Positions 28,921-64,000 of a stretch of 64,000 nt of DNA are shown here, piece by piece. The position numbers and the translations under genes are program-made. The notes beneath the pieces were generated by a model. It was not told the DNA's origin. It made no database searches and saw only the letters and a list, made by a program, of their open reading frames with translations. The stretch lies in contig NC_063157.1 in NCBI RefSeq assembly GCF_020921035.1, positions 20,539,015 through 20,603,014 on the forward strand, written 5' to 3'. This DNA is from Rhodamnia argentea (lineage: Eukaryota > Streptophyta > Magnoliopsida > Myrtales > Myrtaceae). Each line of letters starts with the position of its first letter. Positions within the stretch are counted from its first letter, which is position 1.

Positions 28921-28929
28921 TGTTTTCCT

Positions 28930-29470
28930 TTCTATCAAGGCATCAAAACATTTTAAGAAAAATGCATTTATCTTCCAATACGCGGGTTCTATCAAATTTG
29001 GCTAAATTTTGATCAAACATAACTTTTTCATCCAATCTCCGATTAACTCGATTTTTGCACCAACGGAAGACTGGTAATCCAATTGTTTCAAAATGGTCAC
29101 AATATTTTCCTCGATAACAATTCATTTGCCGTGATTGAATATAATTAACTTAGATAATTAAGGCATCAAACATTTCTCTTTCCACGAGCAATTTTTTTAT
29201 GCATCAAACATTTCAAACATGAACATCAATCAATCTCACTTACATCATAGTCTATTTTTGCTTTGACATTGTCAACTTCATGAGCTTCTACAATTGAGAA
29301 AACCCCGAATTCAATTGGAAAAAAAAAAAAGATACAAGAAACTCCAATGGAAGAACCACAAGAAATTAAAAAACAAAACATGCAATAATACAAAAAAAAA
29401 AACCTTGAGGGAAGTAGAACAGTTAAGTTCACATCCTCTTGTGAATTTCGGAAAGAGAAATTAGTTTTAA
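28930..29470 (-). repeat. Right arm of the inverted repeat (arm copy 1)
   Basis: This is the reverse complement of the left arm at 26795-28120. The same sequence in the same orientation recurs at about 30970-31540 and 32515-33080, each time directly after a PMD-like fragment. Confidence 0.75.
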
Positions 29471-29569
29471 AGAGGTGCAAGATCTAGAAAAAGGCGTAGA
29501 AGATAGGTGAACTTTATACTACTATGAGTTTTTCATGGAGGAAAGGAAAGCTTCCTGTTAAGGATATGT

Positions 29570-30540: not shown

Positions 30541-30575
30541 CCAATACATTAGTTCTATCGAATTTGGCTAAACTT

Positions 30576-30790
30576 TGATCTTTTTTGCTGGCTGATATGG
30601 AGTTGCAATTTAGGCTTCCATGTTGGACATATATAACCACACAATACGTGATTTACTGTTATCAAGTGATGTTATTGGAAGTAAGTATCCCATTAAACAT
30701 GATGCTGATGAAGATGTCTATATAGCTAACATCATCCTAGTTGATATACACAGTATCAAAAAAGATCATCCTTATGGCATTGAAAATTTT
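30576..30790 (+). repeat. Repeated segment with a shared reading frame, copy 1 of 4
   Basis: A segment of about 200 bp starting near 'gctggctgatatggagttg' recurs at 32035-32255, 33525-33750 and 35690-35885. All copies can be read as variants of KHDADGDVYVANLTLVDIHS followed by IKEDHP. It probably comes from the part of the PMD-type element downstream of the core domain; I do not recognise it otherwise. Confidence 0.6.
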
Positions 30791-30969
30791 CATTTTTAGG
30801 CTTAATGTGGCAAATGTATTATTACTTTTTCCCGGTTAACGTATCTATTTCTAATTAGTTTGTGTAGATATGATTTCATGAGCATGTTGACATGGCTCGG
30901 CCTAATCTTCAAGATTCCACAACTTTTCCCTATGCATGCCAATAGCCCTTTTTCTTTTTATGTTCGTGT

Positions 30970-31540
30970 ATTTTTCTTTATATTGATGTATTAAAACATT
31001 TAAAGAGAAAAGTATTTATCTTTCAAGATACAGTTTCTATCGAATTTGGCTAAACTTTGATTAAACATCACGTTTTCATCCGATCTTCGATAACTCGATT
31101 TTTGCACTAATGGAAGACCGGTAATCCAATTGTTTCAAAATGGTCACAATATTTTCCTCAATACCAATCCGTTTGCTGTGATTGGATATAATTAACTTAT
31201 ATGATTAATGCATCAAACATTTCTATATTTACGAGCAAATTTTCGGTGCATCAAATATTTCAAACATGAGTATCAATCAATCCCATTTACATCATAGTAT
31301 ATTTTTTCTTTGACATTGTCAATTTCATGAGCTTCTACTTTCGAGGGAACCCCAAATTCAATTACAAGAATAAAGATACAAGAAAATCCAGTAAAAGAAC
31401 CACAAGAAATTAAAATAACATGCAATAATACCAAAGAAAAAACCTCAACGGAAGTAGAACAACTAAGTTCACATTTACTTGTGAATCTTGGAAAGAGAAA
31501 TTAGTTTTAAAGAGATAGAAGATTTAGAAGAATGTGTAGA
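30970..31540 (-). repeat. Arm sequence copy 2
   Basis: Diverged copy of 28930-29470 in the same orientation, including 'ttggctaaactttgatt', 'ccgtttgctgtgattgg' (mutated) and 'gtgaatcttggaaagag'. Confidence 0.7.
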
Positions 31541-31559
31541 AAATAAATTAGTTTTATAC

Positions 31560-32500
31560 TACTATAAATTCTTCGTGATTTGTATGAAGTACCCTATTAT
31601 GCTTGGGGTATGACTGTACTTGACAATACAACATTTTGAGTAAGTAAAAGAAAGGGGCAAACTATAGCAAGCGTCGGTGGTTGCCTTGCACTCCTATAGG
31701 TATTTTAAGTACACTGGTTATTCTTTTTAATTATTTGTGTGCAAAATATCTCCCCTTTTGGATTATGATGAGGAGTTTTACCCGATTGACGTTTTTATTT
31801 CCAATTGATTTGTGTAGATTTGGTTTTATGAGCGTGTTACATGGCTCAGCCTAGTTTTCAAATAGATTCTCGGACTTTTGCCCTGGTTAACTAGGTCGAG
31901 TGTGTTGACGTCGTTTTGGTCCTGGGCCTTCTTGTCATTGGGAAGCCAATAATAATTCGAGAAGATCATCCTCTCTCGGCGCAGGGGTGAAAATACCGAT
32001 TAGAAGTAAATTTTTGCATATTATATTATATTTTTTTGTTTGATCTTTTTTGCTGGTTGTTATGGAGTTGCAATTTAGGCTTCCTTATTGGAGATGTACA
32101 ACCATACAATACCTGATTTGTTGTTACCAAGTGGTGTTATTGGAAGAACCCCATCAAACATGATGCCGATGGAGATGTCTACGTAGCTAACCTCACCCTA
32201 GTTGATATACACAGTATCAAAGAAGATCATCCTCGCTTTTGGAGTAGGCTGTAGGTGTGTAGATAGATCCTCAATTGTTTTTGTCAAATTTAGATGTTCT
32301 TAGGCGCCTAGCAAAAAATTCTCTACATTCTATGGCATTGAAGGCGAATTTGTTAATACTTTTGCCCGGTTAACGAATCTATTTCCAATTGATTTGTGTA
32401 GATCCGATTTCATGAAAGTGTTGACATGACTATGTCTAATCTTCAAATAGATTCCAAAACTTTTCCCCATGCATGCTAATGACCCTTTTTCTTTCTATGT
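31560..32500 (+). pseudogene. PMD-like fragment, copy C
   Basis: VLVLGLLVIGKPIIIREDHP at about 31917 is the conserved core of the mobile-domain pattern (LGL...GKP). The repeated segment at 32035-32255 and the text 'cccggttaacgaatct' follow. The frame is broken. Confidence 0.6.
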
Positions 32501-32514
32501 TCATGTGTTTTTAT

Positions 32515-33080
32515 ATCTATTAAGGCATCAAAACAGTTAAAGAGAAATGCATTTACCTTTCAGTACACGGGTTCTATCGAATTTGGCTAAACTTTGATCA
32601 AACATCATGTTTTTATTCGATCTCCGATTAACTCGATTTTTACACCAACGGAAAATCGGTAATCCAATTGTTTCAAAATGATCACAATATTTTCCTCGAT
32701 AGCAATCTGTTTGCCGTGATTGAATATAATTAACTTAGATGAGTAGTACATCAAACATTTCTATTTCTACGAGCAAATTTTCGATGCATTACACATTTGA
32801 AACATGAGTATCAATCAATCACATTTACATCATAATTTATTTTTTCTTTGGCATTGTCAATTTCATGAGCTTCTACATTCGAGAAAATCTCAAATTCAAT
32901 TACAAGAACAAAGATACAAGATAATATAGTGCAAGAACCACAAGAAATTAAAAATAACATGTAATAATATGACGAAAAAAACCTCGTAGAATGGCTAAGT
33001 TCACATTTACTTGTGAATCTCGAAAAGAGAAATTAGTTTTAAAGAGGTAGAAGATTTAGAAGAAGGGTATATGATAAATT
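32515..33080 (-). repeat. Arm sequence copy 3
   Basis: Third copy of the arm, same orientation as 28930-29470, with many substitutions and a short deletion near 32980. Confidence 0.7.
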
Positions 33081-33099
33081 AGCTTTATACTACTATGAG

Positions 33100-34054
33100 T
33101 TCTTCGTGATTTGTGTGAAGTACCCTACTATGCTTGGGTATTGTCATGCTTGATAAGCGTTGGTGGTTGCCTTGCATTCCTACAAGTAATTTAGGCACAC
33201 TGGTTATTCTTTCTAATTTTTTGTATGCGTAATATCTCCCCTTTTGGCTGATGATGAGTTTTTCCCGTTGACGCTTTTATTTCCAATTGATTTGGGTGTA
33301 AATTTGATTTTATGAGTGTGTTGATATGGCTCGGCCTAGTCTTTAAATAGATTCCTAGACTTTTGCCCCGGTAAACTAGGCTGAGCATGTTGACATCAAT
33401 TTGGTCCTAGGCCTTCGCGTCGTTGGAAAGCCAGAGACAATTCAAAAAGATCATCCTCTCTCAACGCAAGGGTGGGAGTACCGATTAGAAGTAAATTTCT
33501 GCATATTATATTATATTTTTTTGTTTGATTTGTTTTGTTGGCTGATATGGAGTTACAATTTAGGCTTACATATTAGAGACATACAACCACACAATACGTG
33601 ATTTGCTATTACTAAGTGATGTTACTGGAAGTAAGTACCTCATTAAACATGTTGTCGATAGAGATGCCTATGTAGCTAACCTCACCCTAGTTGATATACA
33701 CAGTATCAAAGAAGATCATCCTCGCTTTTGGCGCAGGCTACGAGTTTTTTAGCTTTTGGTGTAGATAGATTCTCATTTGTTTTTGTCAAATTTAGATGTT
33801 CTTAGGCACCTAACAAAAACTTCTCTACATTCTATGGCATTGGAAAAATTGATTTTTTAGCTTAATATAGTGAATCTCTTGTTACTTTTGCCCAGTTAAC
33901 GTATCTATTTCTAATTGATTTGTGTAGATCTAATTTCATCAACATGTTGACATGGCTCGGCCTAATCTTCAAATAGATTCCAAAACTTTTCATGTTGCAT
34001 GCTAATGGCCCTTTTTCGTTCTATGTTCTTGTGTTTTTATTTCTATCGAGACAT
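33100..34054 (+). pseudogene. PMD-like fragment, copy D
   Basis: MVLGLRVVGKPETIQKDHPL at 33401 onward gives the best-preserved core of the series, with STQGWEYRLE after it. The repeated segment at 33525-33750 follows. At about 34055 the sequence switches abruptly to the retrotransposon fragment. Confidence 0.65.
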
Positions 34055-35550
34055 CAAAATATCTGGGAAATCATGCTTTCGAAATGCTGGTTCATGGCTT
34101 CAAACTGCTCCTTCAGAGCATCCTGGACAGCAACATTGATATCTGCTCTTTCGGGTATTTTTCTCGCTACTGATCGAGTAATGTGTAGAGAATCCGTGAT
34201 AAATTACCTGCATAAGGAGATGACATGGTGAGTACAATACCCGAGAGACGTCAAGTCTATCCATGGCGTAACTAGACTCACGGACAGTGCATGACTAGAC
34301 TCATTACCTTATTGCAGGGAATTTCAGTTTCATCGGACTTTAGAGGAAAATTCATGAAAAGTCACTTAATGGTCAAAATGATGTAAAAATTTACAACCTT
34401 GTAGCCGAGAGGCTTACGAGTACAATACCCGAGAGACGTCAAGTCTATCCATGGCGTAACTAGACTCACAGACAGTGCATGACTAGACTCATTACCTTAT
34501 TGCAGGGAATTTCAGTTTCATCGGACTTTAGAGGAAAATTCATGAAAAGTCACTTAATGGTCAAAATGATGTAAAAATTTACAACCTTGTAGCCGAGAGG
34601 CTTACGAACAACTTTCATGTTGGGTGGTCATACTAGAAATGGACGAATAAAATCAATTTAATGTGTATTTTCGAAAACTCATGTTCAGAAAACTGTTCTA
34701 TCCGCCTATTGTTGAAAGAACGGAGGGCCCACTTAAATTGTGAATTTAATTATGAAATTTTGTAGACTATTAGATGAAGTATAGACCTACAACTTTTGTG
34801 TTTGGACATTCTGCAAAAAGGGCACGTTTTCCGATACTAAACCGTAGAATGATTCTGGAGTCTGAAAACGTGTGAAATTCCAGCCCGCTCTATCTTGACT
34901 ATTAATTCCTTATTAAATGGAAAATACATTGGATTGTCACGAAAAATTTAATTCTGATATATTATGATCTTCCGAACATTTTTCATGAAGAAGAGTTTGT
35001 TGAATTGTGAACGGAAAAGGGTTAGAAAAATCACCGAATGAATGAAGGTCTGCCAGTCAAAATACATTGCAGTTTCTGTGCATCAGAAAAAACGTGAGTT
35101 CTCTTTCACTTCGTCCCAAGTAAATAAATCCCTTTAGTTCTGGATTTTTTAAATGTTGGAGATTATTACATTGCCCACAACTTTTGTTGAGAGTGTTTAC
35201 TCGAAGCTTGATCGTAGAATTTAGTAAAAATTGCGCAACAGAACAAGACAAATCAGAATTGAGGGAAACTGATGAAGTTACTATTAATGTAAAGACTACG
35301 GAATCGAAGTCATAAAGTACAAAATTAGAAACATGATAATGAAATTCCTAAACAATCGACCTATGAAAGTAAAGACATGACTCAACTTTCTAAGCAAAGC
35401 AAGAAATCAAACGGTCTTTCTTTTCTTAGAGGCCACATGCTCTATAGACGAATGGGCTTGTAAGGCGCGCCGTAATCGTGAGAACTATGATAATTCTCAT
35501 TTTATACTTAAATGAATGATTTACTAAAAATCAAAATTTAGGTGTTAACA
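34055..35550 (-). mobile_element. Truncated LTR retrotransposon (gypsy-like) in minus orientation
   Basis: Read on the minus strand the segment begins TGTTAACACCTAAATTTTG at 35550, a typical LTR head, with a TATA-like 'gtataaaatgag' shortly after (near 35505). Leader-like sequence follows. Near 34205-34055 there is a frame reading RADINVAVQDALKEQFEAMN then QHFESMISQIF, compatible with the start of a gag protein. It stops at the junction with PMD copy D, so the rest of the element and the second LTR are missing. Classification as gypsy-like is from the LTR head only. Confidence 0.5.
34230..34605. repeat. Near-perfect 188-bp tandem duplication
   Basis: The unit starting gagtacaatacccgagag at 34230 recurs at 34418 with a 188-bp period. 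I see one substitution between the copies (cacggacag versus cacagacag). The duplication is much younger than the surrounding diverged repeats. Confidence 0.92.
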
Positions 35551-36160
35551 AGGCCTTCGCATCGTTGGAAAGTCATGGATAATTCAAAAAGATCATCCTC
35601 GCCCAGCGCAAGGGTGGAAGTACCGATTAGAAGTAAATTTCTGCATATTATATTTTGTTTTTTTTTTTTGTTTGATTTGTTTTGTTGGCTGATATGGAGT
35701 TGCAATTTAAGCTTACATGTTGAAGATATACAACCACACAATATGTGATTTGCTGTTACCAAGTGGTGTTACTGGAAGTGAGTAGCACATTAAACCAGAT
35801 GTCGATGGAGATGCCTATGTAACTAACCTTACATTAGTTGATATACATAATATCAAAGAAGATCATCCTCACTTTTAGAGCAGGCTACAAGTGTGTAGAT
35901 AGATTCTCATTTGTTTTTGTCAAAGTTAAATGTCCTTAGGCACCTAGCAAAAACTTCTCTACATTCTATGGCATTGGAAAAATTGATTTTTTAGCTTAAT
36001 GTGGCGAATCTTTTGTTACTTTTTCCCAGTTAACATATTTATTTCTAATTGATTTGTGTAGATATGATTTTATAAGCATGTTGACATGGCTTGGCCTAAT
36101 ATACAAATAGATTGCAAAACTTTTCCCATACATGCTAACGGCCCTTTTTCTTTCTATGTT
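35551..36160 (+). pseudogene. PMD-like fragment, copy E
   Basis: It starts mid-domain with 'aggccttcgcatcgttggaaag', matching copy D from 33410, and continues with the repeated segment at 35690-35885. It diverges from the other copies at about 36160. Its beginning coincides with the retrotransposon border at 35550/35551, so it may be the interrupted half of an insertion target. Confidence 0.6.
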
Positions 36161-38775
36161 CGTGCGTTTTGGCTATTCTCTTTTTAGGACATGGTTATGG
36201 TTTCGGGGTTCTTTTATTCTGATGCTTTGTTCTGTAATTTTCTTATCTTCATTGTCGATCTGATTTTTTCTGTTAATCTTTTTCTCCCCTTTGGTGTTGT
36301 TGATGATAGTGATCCAAAGAGCTGCAAGTTCAGGCGATTTTCATTTCTATTTTTGCTTGGGAAGATCGTTTGAAATCTAATGCACAGCCCATCGCAAGAA
36401 GATGAGGATCCACGCCAACACATATGTTCAATATGTCATCTTCCAAGGAAAAATGGCACGCTTTTTCTTTAGTTCTATAGCAAAAGTTGAGGTTAAAATA
36501 ATGACAGAAGAACTCTTACTCATCCCGAATCAGCATACCATTCCGAAGCAATAGCAGTGACCAATCAACGAGACAAAGCAACAAGAAGCTTGAAACCCTA
36601 AAACGTTGCTACTTCACCAAAACTTCAACACCGTTAGATGCAACTTGTTTTGGAAGTACAACAACAATCAATGAGGCAAGTCTTATCCAGACTAGAGCAT
36701 GGGGCACTGGCTCTTCTATTGTCTCAGAGTAATAGGGAATCTTTCATCGTACACACCGGAATTTTCCAATTTAACAATGTGAGATTTGTAATTGTATATT
36801 CAAGACCCAGCAAAAAGTGCATGGAGTTGATTACTTGACCACAAAACAAACATAGAAACATTCTTATTCTTCCCATAGTCAAGTTAATTATTCTTCTCGA
36901 ACTAATCAAGCGTCTTCAAAGACCGAGCTTTTTCCCCTTTTCCTCTTTTGTTCGACAAACCATGCTTAAAACCCCCAAACGGATTTGGGCATGTGGTATC
37001 GATGATTAAGATTTATATTTATATCATGATGCGGCTAATATGTGCATAAGCCTTTAGCTTATATTGTAATTACCAAGTTGCTCCCAATGTTGAGCATGCC
37101 GTTTAATCTTGAGCATCATGACTGTAAAATGGGATTAGTGTCTAAGTGAATGCAAGAGACCACCGATTCATGTAGATGCACAAGTGGGTACAAAGGTGCT
37201 TCCTGCTGGCGCTTGTCCTCGTACAAGTGTCACGAGCTCATCCTACAAGTGTCACTAGCATACTTTTAAGGGTCAATCCGTGTACCACCTTAAGTTTCCT
37301 TTTTTTTTTTTTTTGGGTAAGGTAAGAGTGTAGTTTCCTTTGATCGTTGGAGCGCCTAAATTTAGCCTAACTTAGCGTAGAGAGGGAGTTCTAGAGAGAG
37401 AAGCGGATGATCAAAATGAGGGGAACACGTTTTTATATAGTGGAGGATCTCTCGTTACAACCGTTGATCCTATCTCGATCTTTATATAATGAAGGGCATC
37501 TTGTTACAATCGTTGATCCTTTGTCGATCCAAAGATTAAGATCGTATCTTCCATCTACTCAACTACGGACATTAAATGAGAAGGTTATAGAGCACGGGAC
37601 AATTACCATATTGCCCACCCTTGAGAATTCTATAGAGAACGCTAGAAAACTATAGAAAATTCGACATGTTGGGATATGTTATATTTTAAATGCATATTTT
37701 TATATATATACATAATAAATTATGATTCTTATGATTATTTCAATCAAATTAATTTGATTCAAATCCATAAATAAATAAAAAGATCTTACAATGAATTTAC
37801 ACTAAAAACATTAATCCTTCATTTATTAGTATCATTCATTGTTTTGAATTGACAAATTCAACAACATTCCATTATAATAATCCACCATTTCTTGGTGGAG
37901 TTTTTGTTTTTTGTTTTTTTACAATATTAGGTTTTTATAAATTTGCATTTTTACCCCTAAAAGATTGAAAATTTTCAAAATTGACTCGTACGTGTCGGAT
38001 TTGGCATGTCAGAAGAGTTGACCATGTGTCGAAAATCCGACACGCATTAACTCGAAGAGTGTCGATCTGCATAATGTATAGCCCAAAGTTAGGTTTAACC
38101 CAATCGGATTTGGAGTGTCATTTCTATTCGGGCCCGGTTCTCAAATGATAATCTCTTGGTGACCTAATTTAGGGCCAGAGATGAGATTAGCCAGGCTACA
38201 ACATGTTGGGACGGATTGTGAATGTTGAGGGTTCTTCATTAGGCTTCTAGTGAATATTAGTTTGACATACTTAATTTGTTCACACCAGATATTATAATCG
38301 ATGATGATTCTCATAATGAAAGGATGTATTCTTCAGTAACTATAGATTTAGCATTCAATCAATTACGATTCATTGTTTAATGGAATCATACGATTTTAAA
38401 ATCGTGGTGCTCTAGCGTGGACTAAAGTAGAAATATAAATAATTTTCGAAGCCATACTCATGTTAAATCACTTACCGGTGACCAATGAGTCGATAGAGTG
38501 CCTTAGTCTCATTTTTCAAGTCACGTGCTAGTTCTCTATTTTGCGTGAATTTTGTTCCTCCGGTGGGCCACATTTAGCAGCACCTTCCCAAACAGTAACA
38601 AAGTGAATTCAACATGCAAAAATCCATCCCAACCACAAACGAGGTCATAGTTTTTATCTCATATTCCATATTAAAGCTTAGGTTAGCAACAAGTTTGAAC
38701 TCAATAGTCACACGGGAGAGATACGAGTTTTTGCAACTCCGACCAATGCCTTGATATGTGAGAAGGAGATTGTTG
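36161..38775. other. Gene-free AT-rich region
   Basis: Several short frames are not convincing. A pair of diverged direct repeats of about 62 bp built on 'gttacaaccgttgatcct' lies at 37454-37540. The AT-rich stretch 37670-37760 resembles 55160-55250. A short inverted pair, cgtgtcggat near 37990 and atccgacacg near 38036, suggests a MITE remnant. Confidence 0.35.
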
Positions 38776-39633: not shown

Positions 39634-40059
39634 CTGCAGTTAATCACAAGTCAAAATAACATTACGAATCGAGAAGATGTAATTAGGCATAAATGAGTCA
39701 AACCAGCAAGGGTTATGGGCAAGTGTCCGAAAACTATTATGCAATTATGGATCTTGCGTGGACCTGTCAAGATAGACACTAACTGCTTCACTTGACAATA
39801 CCATGAAGTTTTGTTATATGGTGATCATATGCTACAATTTCAGATTCTGGGATACTTGTTTTTTTTTTTTTTGGGGGGGGAGGGGGCTACGGGCAAAGGC
39901 CCGGCAACCCATGCCAGCCACCGGGGAGGGCCATGAAGCCCTCGCCTATGGCCCGACAATCGCCAAGGAAACCTTGGCTAGCAGAGGGAAATATGGAAGA
40001 AGAAAAGGAAATGAAAAGGAAAAAAAATTCGACATTTTAAAAAAAAATTACAAAAACTC

Positions 40060-40330
40060 ATGCATCAACACTAATCGTGCCACTGTTGAACTCCACTATG
40101 ATAGTCCATCAGTTGTTGGGCTTGTTTTAGGTGTTCATCCAAGCACTTGGCAAGTCCAAAATGTTATAGAAGATTGTAAGAGATGTCTGGCCCAATTTAA
40201 AAGTGTTTTACTAGTGCGCTGTCCGAGAGAAGCAAATGAAGGGGCTGACTGGATCGCCAAAGCTACCAGTAGGAATGTTCTATCCTCTAATTGTGATATC
40301 AAACATCTACGTTGTAACTACGACACTTAA
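40060..40330 (+). pseudogene. RNase H-like domain fragment
   Basis: The frame contains PSTWQVQNVIEDCKRCLAQF then VLLVRCPREANEGADWIAKA, the C-terminal half of the plant RNase H-like domain found in non-LTR retrotransposons and their domesticated relatives (the REAN..ADW.AK signature). The N-terminal half with the first catalytic acids is missing. The frame's upstream part (39803-40060) is GC-rich filler and poly-A and is not coding. I read it as a retrotransposon-derived fragment. Confidence 0.7.
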
Positions 40331-50514: not shown

Positions 50515-52134
50515 CTTATTCCTCCCTAGAATTCAATGTGTTAATGAGAGTCCGAATGCTACAAGTCCAAACTAGTTAGAAACGTAAATTAATCCCTTCT
50601 TCCACCATGGAGCAAGCAATGAAAAAAGCACAGACGAACAGGATGAAGTAAGTCAAATGTCAACTTGCTCCACTTTGCAGAGGCCAAAACAGAAGCAGTG
50701 AGCCTACTTGCAGTGGCGGAGAGATTCGTAGCGCTCCTGTTCATTCATGACGGTCTTCCCCATATTCTTGTGAGTGAGCTCATCATTACAGCATCCAACG
50801 AGCTGGTAAGTATTAGGAAACCTACAAAAGCATACAATTGGGGGAAGAACTCAAGAACTGGGAAGACATTTGCAAAGCACCCAGAAGCATAAGAGCACAA
50901 AACCACAAGACGGCAAGTTAAAGCAGATGGGTCCCGGTAGCCTAAGACATTAAGCTTCTTCCATGCCAAGCGCACCCAATGATACTCCATACTCAGACCA
51001 TCAACTGTGATATGATGACCCATCCAAAATGAACCTACAAGACTACGAAGAACTAGCCAAGAAAGCGGATCATTTACAGAGACGATGAGCAAACTCGTGG
51101 GACATTACGGCACATGGGTACGAGCTAATAGAAATGTAGCTCAGGAACACGCGAGTCTGTCCACATGCAGAACAGAAACGCGCAAACAGGGAGGTGAAAA
51201 TACAGCTTCTTGGCCCGCTCGAGGGAATGGGCGAACGGGACGGTCCTCTGTACCGTTGCTCTGTTGCTGCTGCTCCTCTTCTTCTCCTCCCATGGCCGTC
51301 ACCTTCCTCCTGCTTCTTCTCCCTTCTTTCTCTTTGTCAAAGCAAACGTCGCACCCACCCTCTCGTCTCGCTCTAGCTCGCTCTCGATTGACGCGGAAAT
51401 GGAATATTCCTCTGCACGTACGGTGCTGCTTCGATTGACTGCTTGACTCAGCTCAGGCTTTATGAAATTAGCCGTCCGATTCAGAGCCAAAAGATCTCAT
51501 CCATCCAATCCAAACAATCTTAAAATAAATTATCAGTCAGGGAATTGTAAATTTTTACAAATCGATCGAGAAAAATTATGATTATCAAGGAAGTCATTTT
51601 AAAATACGTTCTATTAATTTATTAACCTTAAAAAATTAATGTTAGAATCGGACAGGACCAGATGGAATCCTGGTTTTGGGTGGTTCTCGATGCCAAATTT
51701 TTGGGATGGGAATAATCGGTTTGGCTGCCGACTCAATATGCGAAATCGAACCGCTCGAACCGATCGAGTGGGAAATAGCTCAAATCCTAGATTCAATTCT
51801 CAATTCTAGGGCAGAACCATCCCAACCCAGCCCAAGAACGGATCTCCTAATAGTTGCACAGCAAAATATCTTTGATTTCTTCCTCAAAACATAAGAACTT
51901 TTTGTTAATTTATGGCAACATCATGCGCACCCATAAAATTACAGGTTTATGGTTAGCAAGCCCTTGAATTGCATCTTCGAAAAACATCAACCTACTTCAA
52001 TTGGACCTTAGCATAGCAAGCCCTTGAATTGTGAAAAACAATGGAGAAGACCACCCACAATCTTCCAGACTGGCTTCCCTGTTTCTACTTAAGACTAAAA
52101 AGAGGCGTGTTCCTACATTACATTGATGTTTACC
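50515..52134. other. Gene-free region with repeat remnants
   Basis: Open frames at 50665-50892 (+) and 50745-51092 (-) overlap each other and are not recognised. A hAT-end-like stretch rich in 'cggt/accg' lies at about 51650-51830. The word 'agcaagcccttgaattg' occurs twice (51956 and 52016). Confidence 0.35.
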
Positions 52135-52300
52135 GTCCCCGTTGTGCATCAAGCTGGACTAGTAAGTAAACCACGGAACAACCCACATAAAGGCTAAAAG
52201 CAAAAAGAAGATGAGATAGCAACACACCATGATCCTGGATTTGCGACAAGCTCTGCTTCCCATTGTGCCTCACATTCTCCAAGTCTAGCTTGAGGAGCTG
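52135..52300 (-). pseudogene. Scrambled fragment of the 19.8-kb unknown gene (exon 5 plus intron 5)
   Basis: The minus strand reads KLDLENVRHNGKQSLSQI, matching KLDLENVRHNGKESLSQI of exon 5 at 21450-21510. After a deletion it continues with intron 5 sequence (tctcatcttctttt, as at 21599), and after another deletion ends with 'ccagcttgatgca', as at 21729. About 310 bp of source are compressed into about 165 bp. Because intron sequence is retained, the copy came through DNA, not RNA. Confidence 0.85.
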
Positions 52301-54628
52301 TACAACTTTAATGCACGAAATATATGTTGAATTCTCCGGGCCATCACATATTGTGGGCCTTGCAATGTCATTATCGTGGTGGTCCACATTTAAAAGTGAA
52401 CAAAAGTATACTAATCTAACATATTGAAGACTTATCCACCGAAGCAAATCACGTCGATCCGCATCTTTTTGATACTGGACAATCACTGACGTTTATAGAC
52501 TGCATTTGGATAGAGCGTAACCATATATGTTCGCAAAACAAGTCCATTGATATCCACATTATTTTGACTAATGTGCGTAATATCATAAGTGATAGGGCTT
52601 CGATCTACCAACACTTTGGACATTCATAGGCAAATGTTTGTGCTGGCTATTATGTAAAGGCTTCCTTTTTCCATTTTCTTGCATTATTAGTTCTATCTCT
52701 AATGCATATAGGAATCCAACTCACAGTCAAATTTTGATTAGAAGAAGACCACACCGAACTTCTTGGAAACTAAAATCCAGCCAAAATTTTCCATGAACGC
52801 CTAAATGTTCCCGCAATACGAACATCCTTTAATCGGATTGGGTATCATACGCCGACTCAAACTTGAAATATATTTTGAACGATCAACACCTACAAATGCT
52901 AATGTGATACTTCAATCGAAACAAGAGAAAGATCTCAAAGACACGACCATGTATTGCCAATTGATCAACATCATAACATAGGCCCACAAAAGATCTCAAG
53001 ATGTGCGTCGTGACCTTATTGGAATATAAAGAGGATGTCCATCGCTCTGACTAAATATTTGATTTCCTCGTTTCCTTTGATTTCCAATGCTTTTTTGAAA
53101 AATCAACTTCATTTTTAATCATTATTTTCATATTACCTACACAATTAGTTAAGTTCCAGCATCAATTGTTAGATGACCGGCGAGCTTATAACAGAACTTT
53201 TCCGTCTTAAATGGTTCAACATCTATATGCCCACTACACTTCTTTTAAGCCTCAGTTTAAAGTCATTCTATAGGCTTAACCTAATGAATAGATTATGTCA
53301 ATTTTGCATGAGAGAACAACCTCCGGATAAAAATATCAAAAAAATTATAAACTTATTGCAATTATGCTAATTAAGTCCTAAACCTTTTTTTTTTTTGCCA
53401 GTTCAATCCCCAACCTTTTGTTTGGCCGGAAATTACAAACGTGGTGCGGCTGGCGCAAACGTGGCAATTTTTTGAACATTTTTTTTTTGGAATTTATTTT
53501 GTAGTCAATTTTGAAAAAATACTTCCACCGAAACAAACGCACCCGTTGAAAGGAAATTTACAGATTGGATGTTTGCCCTAATGTGTGCAAATCTTTTTCT
53601 AAAAGCTTGCTCGTAGGATACAACAAGCGCTTTCAAAAGCTGTCAAATGAAGATGCTTTTTCTCAAGGGACCCCACTCAACTCTATTACACATATTAGTG
53701 ACCCAATCATACTTGGATCGACAATTTGTGTATATGTAACGTATATTAAGTCTAGCTTGAATAGGAAGCATTCATTAATCTTGTCACAGTTTTAAAATCA
53801 AAGCACAACATATTTACTGTAGGTTACTCGATATAATATAACTTGCTTAGTACATCAAAGAAAAGAACTCTACAGTGTAAACGTGTAAAAATTTGTTTAG
53901 ACATGTATAGAGTTGCTTAAATACATGTTGGCCTACGCAACGTGCCATAAACAGAGTAAAATTACTAGAAAACAACCCTATCTTTGATGTAAAATAACGA
54001 AGAATGGACATGAGAAAGGGGAGAAAAATGCAAGAAAAGATTAGAAACTTGGAAAGGATTGGCAAATAAGAAATTCAAAGAAAAGCAAGAAAAAATGAGT
54101 AAAGAAGGTTAGAGATAAGGCGACTCAATATCAATTCAATATTCAATCAATTATAACGTCCTTCCGTCTTATGGTATAACACATTATTTTCATTAGTAAT
54201 ACATGCATATATTCTTTCATTTTTTTGCAATTAGGTTCATCTAATTTTGCAGTGTTTAATGTTGGGTCACTAAGACCTGCTCATTTGAGCGTTTCTCTTA
54301 AATCTTCCAAAAAGAAGCTTCTTTGCTTTAAATTATTTGATAGTCTTACGCTATTTTGGGGAAAGTAATCTTTACATTCTGCCATGTGATTTCACGACTC
54401 TACTGGTGAAGCCTCAGTTCTATGATTCATTCACCAGGGGCCTCAATTCCATGTAGGTTGAAGCACTACTGGTCCATGAAGGGCGGCGACAAGTGCCGAT
54501 CCCTCGAATTTTTGCCGTGGATTAGGGCAATAGCCACAAGCAAAATGTAAATATTTTCACTAGCAGCTACAACCGAATCCCATGATGAGCGTGCTGGCCT
54601 AACGTGCACGATCTTAGATGGGACTTAC
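52301..54628. other. Gene-free AT-rich region
   Basis: No supported coding sequence. At 53361-53420 the text 'taagtcctaaacc' ... 'ttcaatccccaacc' looks like the end of a Mutator-type MITE, but the partner end was not found. Confidence 0.3.
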
Positions 54629-54790
54629 TGTTGGCGTGAGCTGTAATTCCCTTTTTTGTAGAAGATTTGATTTTTCCGCGTGATTTGTAGAGGATTCTTT
54701 TTCCTATTTTGTAAAGACTTGACTTGTAGAAGAAGTCGGTCTGATTGTATATTTATGAGTCTATACATATTTGATGAGATAAAGAAGAGG
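54629..54790 (+). mobile_element. LTR head related to the 7712 solo LTR
   Basis: Starts TGTTGGCGTGAGCTGTAATT, closely matching the first bases of the solo LTR at 7712, with 'gtatatttatgag' as a TATA-like box and a 3' part resembling it loosely. The right border is unclear and no target duplication was found. Confidence 0.45.
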
Positions 54791-55924
54791 AAAAAGAAAA
54801 AAAAGAGAGAGGGTGAGGTGTTTGACCGAGGACGTAGACACATCCGAATTCGAAGGATTTTGAGCCTCCAAAGCCTTTTAGGAAAAATATGACGTGTTTG
54901 GCAAGTGTTTTTTGAACTCTATTGGCCAAATGCTAGCATTAACAAAGTTGAAAGCCTAAGGCAGCCTTAGCTTTCAGCATTTTAGAAATGCTGAAGCATT
55001 AATTAATGATTTTTTCTCGATTGCTTTTTTTTCCCTCAAAGTTTTATTAAAAGCCCATTTGCCCTTCTTAAAAAAGAAATCCCACACCAAAGTAATACCA
55101 ACACTAATACGCGACACGACTCGATACGATACGCCGATACTTCATTTAAAAAAAAAAAGAGAATTTTGACATGTTATAACACGTTGCATATTAAATAGAT
55201 ATTTTTATATATGCATGACAAATTATAATTTTTATGAATTTTTTTCTTAAATAAAAAATTTACAACATGAGGTCTTGTAATAAGACAGGATCCCTATATT
55301 ATGGGCACTTCCATAATTTGACCTCAAAAGCCAGGCTTCCTAGCAAAAACAAATAACAAATTAAAATGAAAATTAAATTGCAATCGTTGGAGGTTGTGTC
55401 TTGGACACAAATCGAGAAAATATTGGGCGCGACTAGAGTGCCAGCGCATCTCCGAGTCGCACCATTCAGCAGCTGCTATGTGGCACCCCGGGCTCCATGT
55501 GCAAAAAATTTTCAAACGCTCAAAATCTTGCCGTCTCTGTCACTCCCGTTAACGCCCAACTGCTTCCCCCCTCTCTCTCTCTCTCTCTCTCTGCCTCTTC
55601 TCTTCTCTTCCTGATGATTGCTCTGCACGCCCATCCCATCGGCGAAGTAAAATCTGCTCTTCACTCTCTCACTCTCTCTCTCTCTCTCAAAGTCCAACCA
55701 AAGGGTACCAAGGGTAGACGAACGCCATTTTTGCCCCAATATTTTCTCCCTCTCAAGGTCCAACCACAACCCACGCACAGAGCAGATGAATACCATTGTT
55801 GCCGACGTTCGTGACGAAGCTCTTGCGGTGCTGCCGGCAACGGACGAAGAGATGATGTTGATGGCGAAGTGGAGCAGCAAGGAGTGATATTAAGAGAGAC
55901 AGACTCTTCCCCACTTCAATAAAG

Positions 55925-55986
<62 letters not shown>

Positions 55987-56862
55987 TCTATATTCTGTGT
56001 GTGGATGGTTAGATCTTTAGCGATCCAGCTCCGAAGCTGCGTTGTGGTGCCAATTTCGAGCTATCTTTGCATCCGCGCGATTTGTTGTTCTTCCCATGCG
56101 AGATCGGAGCTGGTTTGCGGCCGTAGTTGTCCTCGAGGTTTTGTAGCTCCGATAGTCATTTTCCCGACTGTTTGTTTGTTCCTCTTTGTAGCCGTTAGCG
56201 ATAATTCCCTTTTACGAGCGGTATAGTGCCGGTATCTCCGGGTTACGCTTCTCTTTGATCCCAGGTTGATTCTTTTGTGTAGTTCCTTGTAGGAGTGGCG
56301 GCACGGAAAGGAGTGCTTTTGGAGTTCTGTGAAATTTCCTTTGTTAAAATTAGATAGACCGGGAGAAAATCAAGGAAAAAACCCAAATCAGGAATGCTCC
56401 CACAAACCATAGACTCTACCCAAAATCCGCCTTGCCGAGTCCGCATCAATCTCTCTCTGTCTAGATTTCTCTGTTTGGATGAGATTTTGCACCCGAGCTC
56501 ATGTGGTATCAATTTCGTGTGTATGTGCTTCTTTTAATTGTGTCCCTTTTATCGGTGATGATGCCCGATTGTCGATTTTATGGTTCCCAATAGTTTTTGG
56601 AGTCTGTCTCTGGGTGCTTTGAAAACAATATAGAATGAAAGTAGAAACTTGGGATATATTGCAATCAGATGGAAAACTACCAATACTAAATGATTTCTCT
56701 AAGTTTTAGTAATGGCAGAGAGCAAATTTTAACGTATCGAATCAAAATGCTCCACAGTTGATTCTTCGAAATTTCGGAATATAATTATCTTTGTTTACTT
56801 CATGTCATCTTATTTGCATTAGTTGTACTTGTATTATCATATTGTCAAACTAATTCTCCGAA
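54791..56862 (+). promoter_or_regulatory. CT-rich leader region upstream of the GRF frame
   Basis: The stretch 55560-55990 is strongly CT-rich and includes a pure (CT)n run at 55928-55985. A 33-codon frame, MNTIVADVRDEALAVLPATD at its start, lies at 55787-55888. It could be an upstream ORF or the first exon of a gene I cannot follow. AT-rich DNA at 55160-55250 resembles 37670-37760. A spliced leader for the GRF gene is plausible but unproven. Confidence 0.35.
55928..55985. repeat. (CT)n microsatellite, about 58 bp
   Basis: Uninterrupted CT dinucleotides from 55928; one of the longest simple repeats in the window and likely polymorphic. Confidence 0.95.
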
Positions 56863-57273
56863 ATGAAAAAAAGGTGTTGTCTTGCGGGTATGATGTCTTC
56901 ATCCAGCGTGAATGAGACTACTTCGAGTGAATGGACTTTCCAAAATGAAAAGTGTAAGTGTGGTAAGCGTGCTGCTGTGAAAATATCGGGATCAACAAAG
57001 AACAAAGACAAGCTCTACTATAATTGTGTGGATAGAAGGCGTGACTTCTTTTTTTGGTGGTTGCCTACAAGCGATGTGCGTCATCCTATCACGAAGGTTC
57101 CACCTACTAAAGACGACATGAGAAAGATTGAGTATTTGCTTCCGCATATGAAAGACAAACTCTAGAAGATTGATGAGAAGGTGGAGAGATTTAGGCATGA
57201 TATGCACATTTTAATGGGCATATTGTTAGTTTGTGTTTTATTGGTTTTAGTAGGACTAGTCTTGAAAAAATAG
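56863..57273 (+). pseudogene. GRF-type zinc-finger protein, broken by an in-frame TAG
   Basis: The frame from 56863 (more likely start 56890 or 56893, giving MMSSSSVNE) contains KCKCGKRAAVKISGSTKNKD then KLYYNC, the plant GRF zinc-finger pattern, followed by RRDFFFWW. The fourth zinc ligand, normally Cys before FF.W, is replaced by Asp, so metal binding is doubtful. A TAG at 57163-57165 ends the frame after 100 codons. The same frame then continues KIDEKVERFRHDMHILMGIL and a hydrophobic helix ending LVLKK before a TAG at 57271. Small plant GRF proteins typically end in just such a coiled coil plus membrane anchor. I infer a formerly membrane-anchored protein truncated by a nonsense mutation. 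Confidence 0.7.
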
Positions 57274-57579
57274 ACAATTGGAACTTGTAATTTTGGTAGT
57301 TTGAGTGATGAAGATTCAAAATCTGGCTAGCTGTTCCTGCTGTTATGACTGCTCGGATAGCTGCTTAGACTATATATTCTACAACCTTTGCTAGTCCGGA
57401 TGACGGATATGGAAGGCTTACCATTTTATTTTGATCTGCGGTTTCTTTTCATTAGCAAATATTGTAGAACTCGTTGAGAGAAAAATTGGGTGCTGTTTAT
57501 TGGGTTCTATTTGAATTGTTCTGTGATGTTTATGAAGCAATGCATTTTAGATATATAGTAATTTTTTCCTCTCTTGCTT

Positions 57580-58260
57580 TCTAATGCGAGGATTTTTTTT
57601 GTTTTGCTGTTTTTTTTTTATGTCCCTTTTGTTTATTTATATAAAAAAACACGTTTCTAATTCTATGTTATTTTTCATAAATAATTTGAGGATCTTTATT
57701 CAGAAATTAAAAAAAATAAATAGAAACATCAGTCAAATATTTGAAACGGCCATTTACTTACGAAAAATTAAACATGCGGACCAATGAGAACGGATTTCGA
57801 ACTTGAATAATTGAACATGCGACATGGTCGGATACATAACGAATTAGATTGGAATGGACATCGGTCACCCTCCATTTGGGAAATAACTACTAAAAAAATT
57901 AGGTTGAACACAAATGAAATGGTTGTCCACCTTTTCCGAAATTCTTTTTTGCCGTTTCTTTTGTTTATGCCCCTTTCATTTTTTATATAAAAAAAAAGGC
58001 GTTTCTAATTCTACATTACTTTTCATAAAGAATATGAGGCTCTTTATTCATAAAATGAAAAATTTAAATAGAAACATCAAATGTTGGGTATTTTCGAAAT
58101 TTTTTTTGCCGTTTCTTTTGTTTATGCCCTTTTCGTTTTTTTATATACAAAAAAAATGTGTATATAATTCTACGTTACTTTTTGTAAAGAATACGAGGCT
58201 CTTTATTCACAAAATGAAAAAGTTAAATAGAAACAACAAATGTTGGGTAGACATATATTT
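57580..58260. repeat. Three diverged tandem units of about 165 bp
   Basis: Units start near 57590, 57935 and 58098 with 'ttgccgtttcttttgttta' or a variant, then an A-run, 'gtttctaattcta', and 'aggctctttattca'. The last two adjoin. The reading frame through the last two units (57914-58291) is open by virtue of repetition and is Phe/Lys-biased; I do not call it a gene. Confidence 0.75.
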
Positions 58261-58337
58261 GTATCAAATTTTTCTACTCTGCATTTTGTAGTAGTAATCA
58301 AGGAGAGTTTCTGACACATTTTTTTTACATCTTTCTG

Positions 58338-59105
58338 CTTTTGCAGTAGACCAGTGGAAGAAGATGCCAACGTAAGTGATGTTATCAACATATGTTATCT
58401 CATGCATTGCTATTCTTTAAGGGTTTTCTGGTTACTGTAAAATGCTTCTGCACAGAAATGGTTTATGAGGTGATTTTGTGATCTACAGCAGAAGTAAATA
58501 ATGAATCATGACAGGATTCGTGTGTACTTTTTTTTTTTTGCATAAGATTCGTGCGTACTTTGAAATGAACATTTTCTAGATTGAATGCTAGTTGGAAATC
58601 ATGAGCTTTAGCTTCATGCTGGGTGTGCATTATAATTCCATTTGATGGATATAACTGGTGATCTGAAGAAAACGGAAGTTTGTGAGTTCCCCTCCTGGTG
58701 AATGTTATAAAGGAATTTCTTTTATGGACGTCGGCCTGACAAAAGTTTTTAAAACTTTTTGCGGTTACTAGAATTTTGTTATATGATATGATGACTTGGT
58801 GTTGAGCATACTGTTGGGGAAAATACTTCAACTGTTTCATCTTTGTATCCTTATATTTGCAGTTTTAGTTTTGTGCTTCATTTGACTTTTGAGTGTACTC
58901 ATTATAATGAATACCATTTCATAATGCCTGAGCCCTTATCTATACCTTCTGGTATAGGGTGGCAAGATTGAGGAAGAGGAACTTAACACAGGCCCAATGT
59001 CAGTGCTGATGATGAGTATTAAGAGCAATACACATGTACGATATCGTAGTGGCCGCACAAGCATACTTCATCTGCGGAGATTCTATCATAGACTGGATAT
59101 TTTTA
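58338..59105 (+). pseudogene. SmD2 spliceosomal protein gene fragment
   Basis: An exon at 58347-58371 encodes RPVEEDAN after a split Ser codon. A second exon at 58958-59035 encodes GGKIEEEELNTGPMSVLMMS then IKSNTH. Both match the N-terminus of plant SmD2, a core Sm-ring protein of spliceosomal snRNPs, with its intron positions retained. Directly after, around 59065-59095, 'tctgcggagattctatcata' resembles the C-terminal RGDSVI region, so most of the Sm fold is deleted. The exon carrying the start codon was not found upstream. This is a DNA-level partial copy and cannot make SmD2. Confidence 0.75.
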
Positions 59106-59448
59106 TGGAGTACTGATCATTAAACTTTTCTAAACGTTTTAATGGAGAGTCTTTTGTGCGACAACTAGGATGGTAGTGAACCTAATGTTGTAAGACTGCA
59201 ATACAATTTATTTTCTCTTTTTTTCAGCAAGAAGTGCTTTAAAGTAATTGGTAGCTTCACGTGGGTTCCTCCACAAACAGTAGACAAGCATTTTTACCCT
59301 TTTGATCGTAATTGCTCGTGGCACTTCTTATCTTTTCAGTTATGCACATCTAATATAAAAAATGTAGTAAAAGATATGTAAATGATTTGCTTCTTTTATT
59401 TGTCTATAGATTCATTTTATATAAGCTTCTGGTTGTTTTGATTTCCAG

Positions 59449-59613
59449 GAAGATGACTTGCCACAGAAGATTGAGAATTTGATGAAAGAAGTTGCCGATT
59501 TGAGGGAAGAAAATGCTCGCCTGAGAGCAAAAGATCGACTGCGAAGCTTGGCTAACAAAACTCTCATGGACCAACTTCTTGCTGCAACTTCAATATCTGG
59601 TCAAAGAAGATAG
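59449..59613 (+). other. Unassigned terminal coiled-coil exon
   Basis: A good acceptor 'gatttccag' at 59448 opens a 54-codon frame with IENLMKEVADLREENARLRA, a heptad pattern typical of a coiled coil, ending ATSISGQRR and TAG. It would splice in phase 0 to the SmD2-like exon ending 59035, which could yield a chimeric protein. The stop codon sits within about 5 bp of the breakpoint with the duplicated microprotein-gene fragment, so the original C-terminus may be lost. I do not recognise the parent gene. Confidence 0.45.
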
Positions 59614-59760
59614 TCCTCGCGATTGCCATGTCTTGGTTCGGATGGTCGACTGTCTTCTTTGTAGTACAGCCTAAGCATGATCCTCCATACCCGATTCTCT
59701 TGTGGAGTTTCTTCCTTTTTAGCTTCTTTTTCTTGGCTTTGGGTTTGTGGTAGGATGATG
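59606..59760 (+). pseudogene. Duplicated 3' end of the 23.5-kb microprotein gene
   Basis: Plus-strand sequence from 59606 matches the minus strand of 23560-23403. It carries the last codons, VRMVDCLLCSTA, with the stop and about 110 bp of downstream flank, including a run similar to 'gagaatcgggtatgga' on the complement. The N-terminal two-thirds of the microprotein are missing. Identity is high but with scattered differences. Confidence 0.82.
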
Positions 59761-60595
59761 TCAATTAGTCGGAGGGACGGAGCGGCTGTTTTTTTTATGG
59801 TGGTATTCTGAGTTTTGTAAGATTTGCTACTTCATGTATGCTAATTACTCTCAAAAAGGAAAAGTGATAGTTGAGTTACCCTAATTTCTCTCAAAAAGGC
59901 CTCAACTTTTCTTTACTATTGTCATATGCTGAAAAGAGCTAAAGTGTCCAAGCCACCCCTTCCACTTCCACTTCCACTCACAACCCCCGTGTCCTCTAAC
60001 TTACACCTCCAAAGATGGTCAGACCAGCATTCTAGGATTTGGGGGAAGACTTCTAGTCTTTCTCTGTTTTGACCCCATTTACTGATTTACAGGAAGTGGC
60101 GAAAAAGGACACGGAGGCCTCACGTTAACCAGAGAGATCAAAGAGATAAAGATAAATACATAGTCGCATCCCTACCACTTTACCCAATTTTTCCAAATGA
60201 GCTGGAGTTTGTATGGAATTTTGGTTCCGTGACTCTATGAACCGTCTCCCGAAATTAGCGGGTTACATTTTATACCCTTGATCGATCGAGCTATCCATAG
60301 AGGAAGTAGGCTTTTAATACAATGGAGTTGACTCGAATCTCTAAGGCTTGAATAGATAAAATAAGTGATGCTTGTTAAGTGTGCTCGAAAATAGAATATT
60401 CACTTTTTAAAGTATCTTTTGGTATGTGTCGCACGAAAAGTCGAACTTTGTGTCTTTTTCAATGTAGTCGTAACTCGGACTGAGTTTATGCAAAATCCTT
60501 ATGAAAAGAAAATGCTTGACAAGTCCTTTCAACGGAGGAATTATGAGGAGAACCAAGAAGGAAAGTCCTCGTCGCCTTGTCCTACCTACGGAATT
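59761..60595. other. Intergenic, no gene seen
   Basis: Short direct repeat 'ctctcaaaaagg' near 59848 and 59888. Nothing else recognisable. Confidence 0.35.
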
Positions 60596-60835
60596 GGATC
60601 CCCTACCATAACGGTAGGGGTGACATTGAGGGATCCGGATCGTTCATTTCAAAATAGACGGCCCGAATTCATCCACATCACCTTTTAAAAGCAGAGGAAG
60701 TTTTTTGGCGAGAAATTTCAAAATTTTAAAAATAGTGATGTGAATCAATCCGAGCCGTCCATTTTTTATTTAAACGGGCCGAATTGATCATAACACCCCT
60801 AACATTGGGGATCCGGTTCCCCTACCATATATTGC
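60596..60835. mobile_element. Hairpin-type MITE candidate, about 240 bp
   Basis: Inner arms at about 60638-60683 ('gacggcccgaattcatccac') and 60735-60790 are inverted and could fold into a long hairpin. The outer words 'ggatcccctaccata' (60596) and 'ggttcccctaccata' (60815) are directly repeated, as are 'acattgagggatccgg' and 'acattggggatccgg'. No coding potential. The superfamily is not assigned. Confidence 0.5.
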
Positions 60836-61561
60836 CATGGCAAAGCAATGGTGCTGGCCCTTTCTCTTTTGCTGATTAGCAGAACCCTACAAGCAACTCC
60901 TAACTACGTAGCGATCATAGTGGCCGTACTAACCCATGAGAATATTAATAATAAAAATAAGGTCAAACATGGCAAGGTTACGCTTTCTGACGGAGAGAGT
61001 TTCAGTGTGCGGTATAAGTTCTAAGCTAAAGTTCATCCGCTTCAATGCTGGGGAACCCAATGCTTCCAGCACTTGATCTTTAGTATAATGTTACTGGAGT
61101 AAGGAGGCATCACCTCCAATCTGTTTTCTTAGATTTACCATGTCAAGCGTGTACTGTTTTGTACCGCTCAGAATGTGATGTTAGCTGTAGGTTCGGATGA
61201 ATTGATGTTAGAGCCATCCACGGTATCAAAAGTTGCGATCGAGTGATGTGACAGGAGTTGTGGCACTTGTGGTGCTCCCGGGACTGCAGCGGCTTAGCCC
61301 TTGTTGAAGAGATGAGAGTTCGAACTTTGGTCTTCAGGATTCTCCTCTGTTCCAAGTTTAGTACTCACAACCAATCATTCCTTTAGATTGGAAACCGATG
61401 GACTCATTTAGACCGATACCTACTGACCAAACCTTCAGCAGCACATCAGGACATACACGGAAGAGTAATAGCAGAGACTTTGCTAAATAAGAGATAGTAA
61501 ATGCAGCTTAAGAAATCCTGTTAGATTAATCAGATTGCGCTGTACATGGTTGAATACTTCT
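60836..61561. other. Downstream region of the allantoate amidohydrolase copy
   Basis: Around 61200-61240 'gttagagccatccacggtat' resembles the region after the primer-binding site of copia-type elements, but no LTR is next to it. Otherwise nothing is seen. Confidence 0.3.
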
Positions 61562-64000
61562 TTACATGTGGGTTTCGAGGAAAGCCAAGACCGAGAGGCC
61601 AGCAGCCCAAACATCACCCAACACGTGCTCCTCCGGCGAATGAGACACACCTCCATGACATCGTACAAAGATCATTCCAACCTGTAGATACATACATGTA
61701 TACCTCCACATAAGTTACCAATTCATCCTTTCAAATCACCACTACCGACCAAAGTGCAGGAAAACACAAGGGATGCAGAGGCCGTAGCTTCGTTAGATAT
61801 GAGATGGCCATGGCATCATGTCCGGCTCCGCTCATTAGCACTGGAACTTCATCTAGGAACTGATTATCCGACATTCTCTTGAGCGCAGAGTGAGCCGCAA
61901 ACTTAAGCTGTCTGCGCAACTCATCATCACATAACTGCACCCGCATCATGCTTTTCATCCCCAAAACATAAGTACTTGCAGATATATTGATAAAAACTAA
62001 AAGAGTAAATGCACAATGCAATTAGACATCCCCACCTTGCGCTCAATCATGCAGGAAACAGAACGTCTGTCACATATCTGATACATCCTGTTAGATAATT
62101 CATAGATCACTGCTTCGCGTCCCATATCATCTATTGCACGTACATCCACTGTGAATATCGCCTGCCACCGGGCAAATTAAAATCGCTACGCATGAATCAA
62201 GAATTCTGAGCTATCTCTAGACAGCCTTGCCATAACAACCAGAAGGCAGATGAACAATTTCTTACTTGGCCTGGAATGACATTACTTGCACTTGGCCAAG
62301 ATGATATCTCTCCAACAGAGCAAACCGGTGAAGTGGAAAGTGACTGCACTGTCGACGCTTTGCAGTGATCATCAAAGGAGAGAAAATCTTCAGACCGTTT
62401 ACAAAGATTTTCCAGTAACACAGTGAGTTCAGCTGCAGCTGACATAGGGTCCTGCCACATAGACATTGGAACCGTACCGGCATGCCCCTGAGAACCTCTG
62501 ACAGTTACCTGCAAAATACCGTGGCAGGTAGAGAGCTTCACAGTCTATAATTTATTCTGGAAGTGTCACTAGCGAAACTCAATAACTAAATATAAGACGT
62601 TGCACTTTGGCATATGAATAATCCCTAGGAATATGACCCAAGAAGAGATTTTCCTAGATTTAATTGTTGAAGGCCTATTGCCTCTCAGCTTATTGACGAA
62701 TTATGTTACTCAGATGGATGATATGAAGCCTCTGTGCGATCATATTCCCTAATTAATGCACACTATGAGCTATGTGAAGAAACTACCTCTAATAGAAAAT
62801 ACCAAACTCTCACAGGAATAATCCAGTTCCCTTATGCACAAGATCTTCTCATATTAGCTGATTAAACAGGGTGCAGGATTAATTTCAAACATCCATTATA
62901 CCTTCAATCTTGTCTGTCCAGCTATTCCTTTCACCACACCAAGAGGCAAACCCCTCCATGCCAGTACAGGTCCTTGTTCGATGAACCTACAGGAGCAGAA
63001 TAGACCACACAAGAAGTTAGACAATCGCTGTCCTCAGCTGGTTTAGCAAGGCAGAAAAGTAATATACCTCAACATAACCCCAAACAGAATCTCGGTCATA
63101 CTTGAGGTTGTATAAATTTTCCTCACTGGTTTGTATGGAGTTCTCTTTAAGAGCCTCTTGTGCAGTTACACCGCTGCATAAACATTGGCATAACTACATT
63201 TTGATATCGAATGCAGAGGGTAAAAAGAAAAGGCTGGGAGTCACTCAAGAAACCTTTTATCAGAAGATTGCAAGGCTGAAGCTGGCAATATTCCAGCAAC
63301 AGCAGCACAACCTAGGAAGGTAGATTGGAATCTAACTCCCCGTTCATCGCTAAAAGCGATTACCTGAAAAGTTCCAATATGAAGGTGGAAGATTGATTAG
63401 ATTTCAGATATGGTCAGTCCAATCATCATTGAGGTAGCAACAGATACAGGAAATCCGTGACGACCCTTGGATAAATAGTTGGCTGCATTCAATGCAAATC
63501 TATAAACTGGAGAGCATCACTACTGGAAATAAATGATCTAATCAATTGTGGAGTCAAAGAGTGAACTTCTTCTGGATTACCATCCATTTCATTCTGGCAC
63601 CATTAAAAAAACTTTCAGTTTGACCTCTGAACTGAGCATTTCAGAAATCCCACTCTAATACACGTTATTTCCTTCATGAATTGAATTGTCGAAATCTGTC
63701 ACCTCTAAGGAGAAAGTTTTCCCACACAGTTAACTGCAAATACATATAACATAATTTTCTAAATGACTGTGCCTTCAGGTGCTAGATATCCTACTCCAGA
63801 TAACTCCTAAAGGACTAGACTAAAACGAAAAAATCACACCTTCTAGAGAATTGACCAGATGTCAATTCTAGACATTTCAATGACAATGCACATATGCTAC
63901 TCCATGGGGGAAACACTACATGGTGAAAGCCGTGAATGAAGCTTTAAGAACAATAAGCAGCAAAATTTTCAAATACCTTGACAGGCCACAATAGATTACC
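61562..64000 (-). pseudogene. AAH: Allantoate amidohydrolase (allantoate deiminase) copy, decayed, runs off the right edge
   Basis: Eight minus-strand exons are visible: 63977-64000 (partial), 63254-63363, 63068-63173, 62902-62986, 62266-62508, 62036-62161, 61788-61950 and 61562-61681. They match plant AAH (M20 metallopeptidase fold), which releases ammonia and CO2 from allantoate in ER ureide catabolism. Recognisable parts are VIAFSDERGVRFQSTFLG, VRGSQGHAGTVPMSM, SWPSASNVIPGQ and DEVPVLMSGAGHDAMA. Lesions: exon 62902-62986 is 2 bp short (VHIEQGP broken) and exon 61788-61950 is 2 bp short after HDAGAV. The donor after LTK reads CT instead of GT. The active-site DEEG is DERG. PMSMRQDP has Trp for Arg, and LDDDVW is shortened to LGDVW. 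Such damage cannot be repaired by alternative splicing. Confidence 0.9.

Follow-up and report, generated by a model that had tools for sequence, protein, structure and literature searches.

A 3-kb mosaic of gene pieces in Rhodamnia argentea, probably a decaying intergenic pseudogene patchwork

Layout of the mosaic and its surroundings

The window analysed here, meaning the whole stretch of 64,000 nucleotides, corresponds to G000:C8:20539015-20603014, and all positions below are window positions unless they carry a prefix. Towards its far end lies a mosaic of about 3 kb, in which a GRF-type zinc-ribbon frame, a piece of an SmD2 gene, a coiled-coil exon and the 3′ end of a microprotein gene follow one another. 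The first-pass annotation had placed these four stretches in a single orientation, and all four indeed lie on the plus strand in the order it gave. The features that the argument needs are the following.

56863-57273, plus strand: reading frame for a GRF-type zinc ribbon, interrupted by a single in-frame TAG and hydrophobic towards its C-terminus (Pfam PF06839; translation)
57598-58249, plus strand: AT-rich 159-bp unit in two adjacent copies (57933-58090 and 58091-58249) and a more diverged third (about 57598-57731)
58245-58249, unstranded: GGGTA microhomology, a 5-bp overlap where the 159-bp unit ends and the SmD2 piece begins (array end and alignment start)
58245-59267, plus strand: copied central section of an SmD2 gene, running from the last part of intron 1 through exon 2, intron 2 and exon 3 into intron 3, identical to its source, G000:C1:6842051-6843042, in 885 of 1,039 alignment columns
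58347-58371, plus strand: SmD2 exon 2 copy, 25 nt, with acceptor AG and donor GTAAGT preserved
58958-59035, plus strand: SmD2 exon 3 copy, 78 nt, ending in T where the source has G, which turns the donor CAG|GT into CAT|GT
59449-59613, plus strand: coiled-coil exon, 54 amino acids, with a TAG right before the microprotein piece (weak Pfam matches below cut-off; open frame; plausible acceptor)
59614-59804, plus strand: copied 3′ end of the microprotein gene, comprising its final codons, the stop and 3′ flanking sequence, with 105 nt at 87% and 77.5% identity over 200 columns against 23358-23541, minus strand
23481-23684, minus strand: intact microprotein reading frame, 67 amino acids, whose 3′ end matches the piece at 59.6 kb (translation)

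The assembly that was searched comprises 346,658,060 bases (346.7 Mb) in 74 contigs, eleven of them large (23.9-37.3 Mb). A separate genome sample of 122 kb from 13 loci contained no match to 54.5-61.5 kb. Scanned against Rfam at gathering scores, the window yielded no family anywhere, and the sole weak match inside the mosaic was to mir-2943 (58239-58285, 27.5 bits with 76 required, E 0.072).

Several features of the window lie outside the mosaic. Just downstream, a MITE-like stretch (60596-60829) has a 15-nt direct repeat at about 60596 and about 60815 and an internal hairpin at 60651-60765 that is 70.6% self-complementary over 119 columns; on its minus strand, sub-threshold Rfam matches are seen to MIR8675 (60654-60763, 31.7 bits against 90.8) and MIR2670 (60615-60801, 28.3 bits against 117). 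Further on, minus-strand open frames at 61731-62544 resemble parts of what we take to be an allantoate amidohydrolase-type gene, and a Pfam search with two of these pieces found no family. At the other end of the window, minus-strand frames encode a STOP2-like and a BIRD-IDD-type zinc finger (5516-5995, E 4e-18 and 1.6e-10) and, at 9315-9695, a domain of the TFIID 31-kDa subunit (E 7.3e-10). Zinc-finger domains of a plant type, together with the presence of introns, indicate plant DNA. A diverged direct-repeat array with spacings of about 1.5-2.1 kb, and with inverted copies at its low end, occupies 26800-36200, and an open frame at 39776-40327 carries an RNase H-like domain (RVT_3, E 2.4e-5).

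The SmD2 and microprotein copies and their sources

The locus had been described as a mosaic of gene fragments whose parent loci were still to be found. For two of the pieces, SmD2 and microprotein, this description now stands as copying at the DNA level, and genome searches located both sources, the first on C1 and the second within the window itself.

The SmD2 copy is 1,023 bp long and 85% identical to its source, with 63 gap columns in the alignment, and it is the only part of 54001-62000 that aligns with the C1 SmD2 locus at about 6.842 Mb. A genome search with 58250-59060 returned, besides the query itself, G000:C1:6842056-6842825 at 86% identity, the number of matches being a lower bound. 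As predicted from its sequence, the source locus holds an SmD2 gene whose five coding exons, separated by introns with GT-AG borders, make up an open frame of 109 amino acids. Within the copy, exon 3 alone (26 amino acids) matches human SmD2 with an E value of 5.6e-5. The piece had been read as the 5′ exons of SmD2. Alignment to the C1 gene confirms exons 2 and 3, but exon 1, which holds the start codon (ATGAG), is missing from the window copy, as are exons 4 and 5.

The same alignment bears out the earlier remark that introns are retained. Since introns are present and align through with the source gene, the copy must have been templated by DNA and not by spliced RNA. A processed (retro-) pseudogene was accordingly rejected: intron 2 is still present in the copy, as are portions of introns 1 and 3. 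What we find is an exon-plus-intron copy of an intact gene elsewhere that has acquired disabling changes, as in a DNA-level pseudogene fragment. Intron 2 of the copy also contains about 31 additional bases, near 58530-58562, which resemble a small duplication of the adjoining sequence.

Exons 2 and 3 of the copy differ from the source at 9 of 103 nucleotides, with 8 replacement changes and 1 silent one, while random changes in the source exons would be expected to cause replacements in 80% of cases. The K2P distance is 0.093 in the exons and 0.118 in the remainder of the SmD2 piece (873 sites). Because exons and introns have thus diverged at similar rates, the copy appears to evolve as if unconstrained, small as these numbers are. 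The exon changes look unconstrained also by their 8:1 ratio, which is based on just nine changes.

At its upstream end, the SmD2 piece meets the array of 159-bp units that sits between it and the GRF frame. The two overlap by GGGTA, which is present both in the 159-bp unit and in the SmD2 intron. Junctions with such microhomology are characteristic of end joining and of template switching. By a rough reckoning, the chance of a match of at least 5 bases at one given junction is about 1 in 100.

The mosaic had also been said to end with the 3′ end of the microprotein gene found intact at 23.5 kb, and this proved correct: positions 59614-59718 match 23437-23541 on the minus strand at 91 of 105 nucleotides, with 14 differences and a K2P distance of 0.150. 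Six of these differences fall in the 61 nt of coding sequence, where third positions are not in excess, and eight in the 44 nt of 3′ flank. A genome search with 59440-59720 found only the query itself and the microprotein gene at 23.4-23.5 kb, counts again being lower bounds. The source thus lies about 36 kb from its copy and in the opposite orientation. Distances of 0.118 for the SmD2 piece and 0.150 for the microprotein piece do not settle whether the two would have arrived jointly or separately.

A second inverted duplicated pair is present in the window, 21442-21859 with 52027-52293 (57 nt at 98% and 133 columns at 81%). We considered a paralogous block between 22 and 59 kb, arisen as a single collinear duplication, as an explanation of both pairs; it was rejected, because the order of the second pair is swapped relative to the microprotein pair.

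The GRF frame and the coiled-coil exon

The GRF frame matches Pfam PF06839 with an E value of 1.7e-5 and 25.3 bits, just below the curated cut-off of 25.9. It is interrupted by a TAG at 57163-57165, and the same frame continues to 57273. The first-pass annotation had regarded this stretch as a gene fragment. The frame runs on past its single stop to a hydrophobic end, so that it could instead be a nearly complete, decayed GRF-type gene. Plants have GRF proteins that carry a membrane segment at the C-terminus. Among 11 candidate protein relatives that were scored, none reached an E value of 0.01 or better, in a database that is perhaps poor in plant sequences (a guess on our part). A structure model of the GRF part before the stop had a mean pLDDT of 47.1, too poor to use.

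The coiled-coil exon encodes 54 amino acids (59449-59610), followed by the stop TAG at 59611-59613, and a plausible acceptor lies just upstream. Pfam returned weak coiled-coil matches, the best to TSC22 (E 0.0011) and all under their cut-offs; a protein search with the exon found no relative, and the genome DNA search with 59440-59720 found no second copy of it, counts being lower bounds. The match to the microprotein gene begins at 59614, directly after the TAG, and for this reason the stop may have been created by the joining.

Joining of the pieces and possible products

On the evidence above, the mosaic is probably an ordinary, decaying intergenic pseudogene patchwork, built by copying and joining at the DNA level. 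The copying of two pieces, their sources, the one junction with 5-bp microhomology and the neutral-like change of the SmD2 exons are observed. From these, the following course of events can be proposed. Genomic pieces, introns included, would have been copied from the SmD2 gene on another chromosome and from the microprotein gene about 36 kb away, and would have come to lie beside the 159-bp repeat, an orphan coiled-coil exon and the GRF-type frame. Joining may have occurred through repair of a DNA break with ectopic copying, be it by template switching or by end joining with inserted DNA, and the array would then have decayed. The break-repair step, which we infer from a single 5-bp microhomology, is favoured over its main rival, a decayed transposon, though whether it was in fact the mechanism of joining is about an even call. 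There is a parallel in maize, where double-strand breaks can contain filler DNA after repair (e.g., at the p2/p1 gene) and chimeric junctions likewise arise from DNA copied from elsewhere, no transposon being invoked in the account of these fillers (PMC2686159). However, the maize fillers described there measure 1-131 bp and are of nearby origin, whereas the SmD2 piece here measures 1,023 bp and comes from another chromosome (PMC2686159). Two observations sit uneasily with a pseudogene patchwork: both splice sites of exon 2 are intact, and the frame of the coiled-coil exon is open.

The rival to break repair would see in the mosaic the interior of an old Helitron, Pack-MULE or CACTA element with captured gene pieces, whose ends have been lost or blurred. 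Elements of these types contain fragments from more than one host gene, and the Helitrons and Pack-MULEs with captured genes described in the literature resemble the present case in that copies of host gene fragments are gathered together (PMC13317346). Our scans for their defining ends turned up none in the present case, and each of the two searched stretches had one other match. Specifically, Helitron-type 3′ ends (hairpin, CTRR, then T) numbered zero on both strands of 54.5-61.5 kb, while the same rule picked up four between the start of the window and 56 kb. A search for Pack-MULE ends gave 195 exact 9-bp pairs spaced 0.7-6.5 kb apart, the best with 9 of 20 terminal bases matching. When looser terminal repeats were allowed (at least 12 of 15 bases, with duplications of 3-10 bp), the 25 listed of 32 candidates were mostly A/T-rich and none was convincing; no member of these 25 starts with CACTA, as would be expected of a Pack-CACTA element, which has CACTA...TAGTG ends and a 3-bp duplication. 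Among the candidates listed there was no good pair of inverted repeats with a flanking duplication. CACTA does occur at five sites in 53232-55102 and TAGTG at four in 59047-60918, such that the motifs at 53.2-55.1 kb and 59.0-60.9 kb bracket the mosaic. Motifs of 5 bp such as these are common by chance. An amplified element is further disfavoured because the source gene is the sole match, besides self, of each of the two searched stretches, 58250-59060 and 59440-59720, counts being lower bounds. On the other hand, the ends of an old transposon could have decayed or could lie beyond the scanned span, which would weaken the case for break repair. Altogether we judge a transposon interior unlikely, and the Helitron or Pack-MULE origin that the first-pass annotation had put forward finds no support in termini with target duplications or in further copies of the two searched stretches.

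A different division of the same pieces would make the coiled-coil exon, perhaps together with the GRF frame, part of an ordinary gene native to this locus, with the SmD2 and microprotein pieces as later insertions. Such a reading shares much with the pseudogene patchwork and differs from it only in which pieces are native. In its favour, the DNA search of the assembly gave no further match to the coiled-coil exon (counts being lower bounds), and the GRF frame appears almost full length. However, short of a systematic scan, no upstream exon of the coiled-coil exon was recognised, and the coiled-coil frame stops exactly at the microprotein junction. We consider a local gene of this kind rather unlikely.

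The earlier proposal of a chimeric transcription unit derives from the exon phases. SmD2 exon 3 has phase 0, as does the coiled-coil exon, such that they could be joined on paper; with the coiled-coil frame open and the splice sites of exon 2 intact, SmD2 exons 2 and 3 spliced to the coiled-coil exon would, given a start from further upstream, encode a short hybrid of about 90 residues. Against this, the start exon is missing from the SmD2 copy, and the sole ATGAG|GT in 53.0-58.36 kb, at 55267, comes without any sign of an exon there. Furthermore, the donor of exon 3 is altered from CAG|GT to CAT|GT, and the exon changes, with 8 replacements to 1 silent, are neutral-like. We therefore hold such a hybrid transcript to be very improbable. 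A precedent exists in soybean, where the CACTA element Tgm-Express1, which lies within an expressed gene and carries five gene fragments, has its captured pieces spliced into the transcripts of that gene (PMC1947982); for this reason, the mosaic could still be transcribed. The soybean element (PMC1947982) and the present mosaic have in common that pieces of several unrelated genes, exons and introns included, lie side by side, but Tgm-Express1 is a transposon in an expressed gene, whereas in the present case no element ends were found. The boldest version of the idea is a young hybrid gene that would take its start from upstream, perhaps from the GRF frame, and would combine the acidic N-terminal part of SmD2 with the coiled coil and a 3′ end derived from the microprotein gene. 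Its small protein product might disturb the assembly of the Sm ring, and we consider this the most far-fetched of the readings discussed.

As far as function as a hybrid gene is concerned, there is no sign in the letters of the locus of a product that would be under selection. The mosaic would matter more only if transcripts crossing its junctions existed. Its practical use may lie mainly in annotation, since pipelines could take such a mosaic for a chimeric gene. Beyond this, it may serve as one further resolved case of DNA-level shuffling of gene pieces in plants, with two pieces whose intact sources are present in the same genome.
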